DNA from: an uncultured Clostridium sp.
GTDB lineage: Bacteria > Bacillota > Clostridia > TANB77 > CAG-508
Direction of reading: 5' to 3'
DNA length: 64,000 nt
Assembly: GCA_945865665.1 (NCBI GenBank)
Contig: CAMBEE010000008.1
Location: 20,137-84,136 of the forward strand
Shown: piece after piece, positions 8,665 through 60,790 of the stretch
Numbering within the stretch: the first letter of the stretch is position 1
How the letters are laid out: every line of letters begins with the position of its first letter
Program-made: the position numbers and the translations under genes
Notes under the pieces: generated by a model
The model's database searches: none
What the model was told of the DNA's origin: nothing
The model's input: the letters and a program-made list of their open reading frames with translations, nothing else

Positions 8665-8857
8665 TTTATATTTTCTTCCCTTCATTTTTACTACTAAAAA
8701 GTAGTTCTTTTGATATATTTTTCCATTTTTATTGTTTATTTTTTATCTCCTAAATAATATCAATAATCTACTAATTTTGCAATAGTTTTCACTAAAAATT
8801 CACTAGAAATTTTTGACATTTTTGTTACAATTCACAGACTATAAAAGTTCTTGTGCT

Positions 8858-9263
8858 CAAGTTGCAACCTTAAGGGTTGTATATGTTTGATATTGTACCC
8901 ATTTGATTGAAGTGAAAAATAGAAAATCTTAAATAAAAAACTGAGGAATGCTCACAAAAGAAATGTATATATGTATATGATTTGAAACATTTTTTCGTTT
9001 CAATACGCAATATAAGAATTTCTAAAATAAATTGATGGATAATTCCACTTAGTCCTCGCTTCGCTCGACGTGAACACTTTTCATAAATTTATTCAAAAAA
9101 TTCTAATATTGCTCCAATCACATTCGAAAAGTTTAAAATCATATACATATATACATTTCTGCCCTAAGTGAGAGAGGCTCAGTTTGGTATTTTAGATTTT
9201 CTTTTTAAACGTAATGAACAGGGTACAATATCAAACATATACAACCCTTAAGGTTGCAACTTG
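8858..9263. repeat. Foldback element A: perfect 43-bp terminal inverted repeats around a structured interior
   Basis: 8858-8900 CAAGTTGCAACCTTAAGGGTTGTATATGTTTGATATTGTACCC is the exact reverse complement of 9221-9263; interior shares blocks with 24063-24418 and 30549-30729. Confidence 0.9.
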
Positions 9264-9313
9264 CATACAAAAATAGTACTCACATTTACAAATAAGTACT
9301 ATTTAAATCATTA

Positions 9314-13156: not shown

Positions 13157-13310
13157 TTTAAAAATTTGATATATATTGTTTTGAAATACCGCGTAAGCGA
13201 CCAAACGAACGAATGTGAGTGCGAACTGGAGCAATCTACATACTAGTATTTTTTAATATGGAGATTGCGACACCAAGGTATAAAAAACAATATATAATCA
13301 AATTTTAAAA
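13157..13310. repeat. Foldback element D: short imperfect inverted-repeat element
   Basis: TAAAAATTTGATATATATTGTTTT...AAAACAATATATAATCAAATTTTA; interior cgaatgtgagtgcgaacTGGAGCAAT resembles element A cgaatgtgatTGGAGCAATATTAG. Confidence 0.6.
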
Positions 13311-23957: not shown

Positions 23958-24062
23958 TTTAATATTTTTCCTTTCTTATAATACATGTCTTTATTTTTTA
24001 TTGATTATATATCTTTTTTTGTTTTTTGGCAATGTGCTTTTTATAATAATTAATGTGTAAAA

Positions 24063-24418
24063 GCATTATTGAGAGTTATCTATTGTTTAAGATTATGTTC
24101 TATTCATTGCGTTCAAAAAGAAAATCTAGAATAAAAATATGAGCCTCTTTCACTCAGAAAAAATGTATATGTTTTGATAATTTTAAAATGTATTTAAGCA
24201 ATATTAGAATTTCTTAAAAAGATTTATGGAAAGAGTTCACAAAGTGGAAGGGTGCCATAAATATATTTTAGAAATTCTTATGTTGCGTAATAAAATTATA
24301 AAATTATCAAAACATATACATTTTTTGTGAACATCCCTCATTTTTTATTTAAGATTTTCTATTTTTCACTCCAATCAAACGAACATAATCTTAAACAATA
24401 GCTAACTCTCAATAATGC
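24063..24418. repeat. Foldback element B: 38-bp terminal inverted repeats (one mismatch)
   Basis: GCATTATTGAGAGTTATCTATTGTTTAAGATTATGTTC (24063-24100) versus reverse complement of 24381-24418; internal blocks homologous to element A in inverted orientation. Confidence 0.9.
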
Positions 24419-24523
24419 ATCTTGCACATCAATTATATATACATATTAAAAAACAGAAAATTTTTGCATAAATTTTCTAAAAGCGGAAAAAATATTTGTA
24501 AAAGAATTTTTAGGAGGTTTAGT

Positions 24524-30464: not shown

Positions 30465-30548
30465 CTAAAAATCTCCTTATCGTTTTACACTTTTATACAT
30501 AATGTGTATTCGATAAAGAGATTTTTAGAACTATTATATAATTTTAAT

Positions 30549-30729
30549 TAACTATATGTATGTATAATAAAAATAAAATTATGATGTGATTGGAATAAAC
30601 TTAGAAATTTTTAATTGATTTTATGGAAAGAGTTCACTTTAGTGGAAGGGTGCCATAAAATCAATATAAAAGTTCTTGTTTATGTATGTGACAGAATAAT
30701 TTTATTCTTATTATACATACATATAGTTA
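30549..30729. repeat. Foldback element C
   Basis: TAACTATATGTATGTATAATAAAAATAAAATTAT outer arm (one mismatch); core TTATGGAAAGAGTTCACtttAGTGGAAGGGTGCCATAAA nearly identical to element B. Confidence 0.88.
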
Positions 30730-30750
30730 TTTTTATAATTATTAATATTT

Positions 30751-46313: not shown

Positions 46314-46321
46314 ATTACTAC

Positions 46322-46395
46322 CTCCAAATTTCGGGATTGGGGGACGGGTCTTCAATCCCGAATTTTTTTTCGGGATTAAAGACCCGTCCCCTTAT
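46322..46395. repeat. REP-like foldback
   Basis: TTCGGGATTGGGGGACGGGTCTTCAATCCCGAA-tttttt-TTCGGGATTAAAGACCCGTCCCCTTATCCC. Confidence 0.75.
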
Positions 46396-46442
46396 CCCTA
46401 TTTTTTACAAATTTTGTTATATTTATTCATATATAAGAAATG

Positions 46443-60721: not shown

Positions 60722-60790
60722 GTCTTAACCCCCAATCCCGTTGTTTAATTTTTCGGGATTTGGAGACCCGTCCCCCAATCCCGAAAAATT
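60722..60790. repeat. REP-like foldback
   Basis: CCCCCAATCCCGttgtttaatttttCGGGATTTGGAGACCCGTCCCCCAATCCCGAA; shares AGACCCGTCCCCCAATCCCGAA with 46322-46395. Confidence 0.75.

Follow-up and report, generated by a model that had tools for sequence, protein, structure and literature searches.

We analysed a window of 64,000 nucleotides from an uncultured Clostridium sp. (contig CAMBEE010000008.1, positions 20,137 to 84,136), which contains three members of one multicopy hairpin family, designated elements A, B and C. Their features, in window coordinates, are as follows.

8816–8823, no strand: candidate left 8-bp target duplication of element A, ACATTTTT, degraded in A and intact in sister copies
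8824–9281, minus strand (the putative functional strand of the core): the complete hairpin of element A, whose right end is uncertain
8824–8837, plus strand: left terminal inverted repeat of A, GTTACAATTCACAG, an IS66-type end
8858–8900, plus strand: left variable arm of A, perfect complement of 9221–9263
8901–8955, plus strand: left half of module M2 of A, a conserved subterminal module with homology to the core
8994–9126, minus strand: core module M1 of A (model R1, 133 bits, E 5e-29; sequence in the training set of the model)
9168–9220, plus strand: right half of module M2 of A, subterminal conserved module
9221–9263, plus strand: right variable arm of A, perfect complement of 8858–8900
24021–24461, plus strand: element B, delimited by what three related genomes (G094, G300 and G283) lack at the orthologous site
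24063–24100, plus strand: left arm of B, complement of 24381–24418 with one mismatch
24185–24299, plus strand: core module M1 of B (R1, 92 bits, E 3e-19; in the training set)
24381–24418, plus strand: right arm of B, complement of 24063–24100 with one mismatch
30546–30732, plus strand: element C (core and arms), an inverted repeat with degraded ends and no clear duplication
30581–30696, plus strand: core module M1 of C (R1, 98 bits, E 1e-20; in the training set)

The first-pass annotation of this DNA had reported a perfect 43-bp inverted repeat in A (8858–8900 with 9221–9263) and a 38-bp inverted repeat with one mismatch in B, and both were confirmed. The fold of A had a z of −15 against shuffles. 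The interiors described as common to the elements were also recovered, as the core covariance model matched exactly A, B and C in the window (E 5e-29 to 3e-19), all three cores being among the 42 sequences used to build it. A fourth proposed member, repeat D (13157–13310), was rejected; its best core score was 12 bits (E 3.8), and it belongs to a separate repeat family of about six copies that are 90–94% identical. The limits first given for A, 8858–9263, were too narrow, since an oriented alignment of the copies extended the similarity outward to the GTTACAATTCACAG ends. A joint search for ends and duplications placed the left end at 8824 and gave no convincing right end; the right end is degraded near 9281, and the right duplication copy is at best ACATTTAC (9282–9289). 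No target duplication was seen in B or C.

BLAST against the own genome gave about 12 near full-length copies of A, most of them 86–93% identical over positions 1–406, and further matches, many of which lay at contig ends. Contigs C3, C5, C6, C8, C9, C16 and others start or stop inside an element, and the copy number in this genome is therefore underestimated. The approximately 12 copies share the arms of A, so the earlier proposal of copy-specific arms did not hold for A within its own genome. B matched the same set of copies at 72–80%, and its arms look like diverged homologues of the arms of A.

A conserved core with a strand preference

The core model matched 70 of the 198 genomes examined in the order, and 69 of these belong to the same family, in which they are spread over many genera. 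Named records carrying the core were metagenome assemblies of uncultured Clostridia, Clostridium sp. and Eubacteriales, and a distant blastn search did not find the core in phages or plasmids. The core, about 134 nt with 34 pairs, is conserved and strongly covarying. Among the 42 genus cores, 96.0% of the cells were paired, compared with 82.0% after shuffling, and 25 pairs had changed on both sides. The covariation score was 0.371 against 0.128 for shuffled alignments, none of 500 shuffles reached the observed value on any of the five measures, and the signal was lost when the partner was slid. We consider it very improbable that the elements are ordinary decayed MITEs, chance resemblances or assembly artefacts. 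The host genome is fragmented, with contigs ending in elements, and several copies are plain MITEs, but the elements recur in separately made assemblies throughout one family, different species have what appear to be orthologous elements, and the covariation lies far beyond the controls.

When the wobble pairs of 57 representatives were read on one strand, G.U exceeded A.C by 85 to 11 (17 to 3 columns), or by 42 to 11 with the apex helix omitted. These counts come from an alignment that had been fitted to the model and so favours the structure; without fitting, the ratio was 60 to 11. They give the core the look of a sequence under selection in single-stranded form, either RNA or single-stranded DNA, and shared ancestry could account for part of the bias. 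When the window and six element loci were searched against Rfam, the gathering level gave only tRNA and the loose level nothing relevant. We also compared the strand of the core with its neighbours, called as simple ORFs, at 90 loci. Between two co-directional genes the core was antisense at 46 loci and sense at 19, which fits poorly with a structure in read-through mRNA; 20 of the remaining loci lay between divergent genes and 5 between convergent genes.

Module M2 is homologous to the core in the matching orientation (left half, score 20 against a shuffled maximum of 13; right half, 15 against 10) and not clearly so in the crossed orientation. At the fabG/topoisomerase locus, one copy (L328, in G083) has an extra hairpin of about 22 bp within the core apex, and another (L352, in G289) has a core-like hairpin nested inside another core.

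Element ends, target duplications and empty sites

Among 14 inspected own-genome copies, joint optimisation of fit, performed without a shuffled control, picked 14-bp ends together with 8/8 target duplications in nine (L002, L005, L006, L007, L008, L010, L012, L103 and L118) and 7/8 duplications in two more (L003 and L104), with 6/8 in L004 and 4/8 in L096. Terminal inverted repeats and target duplications of fixed length, as in a MITE, are thus present in own-genome copies and degraded in A. The elements range from roughly 190 to 490 bp. In a crude scan, no more than 31 of 134 cores had ends accompanied by a duplication, and this number includes spurious hits that lie inside arms (CCTTAAGG in L001, L002, L004 and L005).

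The sequence of the ends and the length of the duplications pointed to the IS66 family as a guess, and PF03050 was then searched in 100 genus genomes, of which 18 gave matches. Of the loci recovered, seven had perfect 14-bp ends starting with GTTAC and identical 8-bp duplications. The ends of the IS66-family transposase elements of the genus include GTTACTGTTCAGAC, GTTACAGTTCAGTA and GTTACTAGATAATG, with perfect 8-bp duplications. Some of the IS66-family ends resemble those of hairpin elements: GTTACAGTTCAGTA, from a G040 element, is like the ends of the G081 hairpins and GTTACAGTTCAG like the arm ends of the G081 copies, while GTTACTAGATAATGGTTTT, from a G021 element, and ATAATGGTTTT are similar to the ends of the L118 hairpin and to the L118 copy, respectively. 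In the own genome (G000), neither a PF03050 match at E 1e-10 nor an autonomous relative with the same ends was found, which weighs against the proposed mobilisation.

These results suggest that the elements are non-autonomous, MITE-like hairpins bearing IS66-type ends, and that a transposase of the IS66 family, which duplicates 8 bp of the target, may have moved at least some of them in trans. They resemble the IS66-family (ISBst12-like) insertion sequences and MITEs in their GTTAC-starting ends and 8-bp target duplications. In contrast to that group, they appear to have no transposase gene, their interior is a long structured hairpin, and their arms are not conserved past the short ends.

Two orthologous loci lack an element. 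In the rsmB/spoVA operon interval, the roughly 440 bp of element B present in the window are missing from G094, G300 and G283, whose sequence is almost continuous there. At the junction of fabG and the topoisomerase gene, about 280 bp in G020 correspond to a gap of 17 bp in G224. Arms are absent from both empty sites, which indicates that they travel with the element. The empty-site comparison suggested by the first-pass annotation could thus be made at two loci, and it runs against the idea, raised there, that the arms are produced on site by inverted duplication of flanking DNA. Duplication of the DNA flanking each insertion site would explain the arbitrary sequence of the arms, their abrupt ends and the REP-like units that they can hold on both sides; with both arms absent from the two element-free loci and arms common to many copies within a genome, we regard this origin as highly unlikely.

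It is also improbable that mobility resides in the core modules, each of them entering an already existing palindrome at its tip and leaving the outer arms as the split target. The nested architecture (core within M2 within arms), the homology of M2 to the core, the extra hairpin in the G083 core apex, the core-like unit in G289 and the seemingly constant module boundaries would all fit such insertion. However, in several copies the IS66-type ends and 8-bp duplications enclose the arms together with the core, and removal of the modules would leave near loopless perfect palindromes. The short own-genome forms L102–L104 keep parts of M2 and look like deletions, and no intact empty palindrome matching an arm pair was met among the sequences examined for other purposes.

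Variation and concerted change of the arms

We compared 76 non-redundant arm families. The median identity between families was 0.54, compared with 0.51 after shuffling, and the mean left-right identity was 0.93, a figure biased upward because the families were selected for being paired; these arm statistics rest on windows chosen by the analyst. Across the genus, therefore, a conserved interior is combined with arms that differ and are still self-complementary, as the first-pass annotation had described from the window. Its statement that the outer arms are unrelated between copies applies across the genus and fails for the own-genome copies of A, which share arms. Likewise, its description of the elements as the reverse of a MITE is too simple, since several copies are MITE-like in having IS66-type terminal repeats and 8-bp duplications.

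The pattern varies among genomes. In G071, four copies have common interior segments and wholly different arms. In G075, 13 copies have left-right identities of 0.69–0.91 and a between-copy median of 0.55, which is the shuffled level; the arms of G036 likewise match left to right, with a resemblance between copies no higher than in shuffled sequence. In G063, G013 and G049, on the other hand, arms are shared between copies. By this comparison the arms are lineage-specific and amplified in bursts, rather than strictly copy-specific. At the fabG/topoisomerase junction, G083 and G038 have a related core with arms that are diverged but matched; we read these elements as orthologous, the alternative being independent insertion.

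In 12 copies of the A family, 50 cells had the same change in the left and the right arm. The rate of change per arm predicts 2.2 such cells under the assumption that columns and copies are independent, although the copies share ancestry; 24 cells had changed on one side. Counted as distinct states, 29 were mirrored and 16 one-sided. In L006, one of these copies, a complex multi-base change made up of an insertion and substitutions is present in either arm in the same form. The arm mismatches that remain comprise 29 G.U, 29 A.C and 55 others that pair on neither strand; the count was made in two versions, one with the conserved loops and one restricted (29:29), and neither has a strand bias. 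The mirrored changes and strand-neutral mismatches favour templated copying over selection for RNA pairing in the arms, and the arms probably match each other because the cell repeatedly copies one onto the other.

The first-pass annotation had also suggested compensatory selection for a long RNA or cruciform hairpin. In this alternative, which extends to a terminator hairpin, selection keeps the arms paired by stepwise compensatory substitutions, with no copying. The core fits this account, as it has compensatory changes and a wobble bias on a single strand, and strand-neutral mismatches in the arms could also arise from pairing selection on both strands. Moreover, the fabG/topoisomerase junction has a short hairpin in some relatives and the core hairpin in others, so a role as a bidirectional terminator is conceivable there. 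For the arms, however, we consider the explanation unlikely: their mismatches have no wobble preference (29:29) and transversion-type mismatches (55) are just as common, the two arms of L006 have the complex change in identical form, changes are more often mirrored than one-sided, and only 5 of the 90 loci lie between convergent genes.

We therefore place at roughly 0.6 the probability of the whole account in which the elements are hairpins with IS66-type ends, a structured core and arms rewritten by template switching. The payload would be the conserved core, folding as one long interrupted hairpin in a structured single strand of RNA or single-stranded DNA. During replication or repair the element may fold back and have one arm copied from the other by intrastrand template switching; with repeated rewriting and occasional replacement, the arm sequence would drift or change wholesale while the pairing persists. 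It is possible, and we suggest it tentatively, that the element is selected for structure and not for sequence, with its conserved internal loops recognised as a single strand and its arms rewritten by template switching during DNA replication, so that their sequence could change freely and the hairpin stay perfect.

In the work of Monttinen and Loytynoja (2022, PMC8794818), template switching is described as able to create and maintain perfect hairpins. The hairpins treated there resemble the present ones in their perfect stems and in multibase paired changes explained by arm copying; they are RNA genes, whereas those described here are mobile elements with much longer arms, for which the copying is proposed from comparison of sequences. 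In this family, the concerted evolution of hairpin arms can be followed under natural conditions in many copies and species, and two look-alike processes, compensatory selection in the core and templated copying in the arms, are separated. If this reading is right, a long stem with strong covariation does not, on that ground alone, count as evidence of a functional RNA.

Some elements end in REP-like GGGGACGG units rather than in IS66-type ends. REPINs and REP palindromes (RAYT-associated) are, like the present elements, intergenic, multicopy and hairpin-forming, and some arms contain REP-like GGGGACGG units; the hairpin elements differ from them in being much longer and in having 8-bp duplications and IS66-type ends. 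The window itself contains REP-like hairpins at 46318–46415 and 60747–60790, whose loop is of the GGGGACGG type and whose stems vary, and similar units form the outer arms of some elements in relatives.
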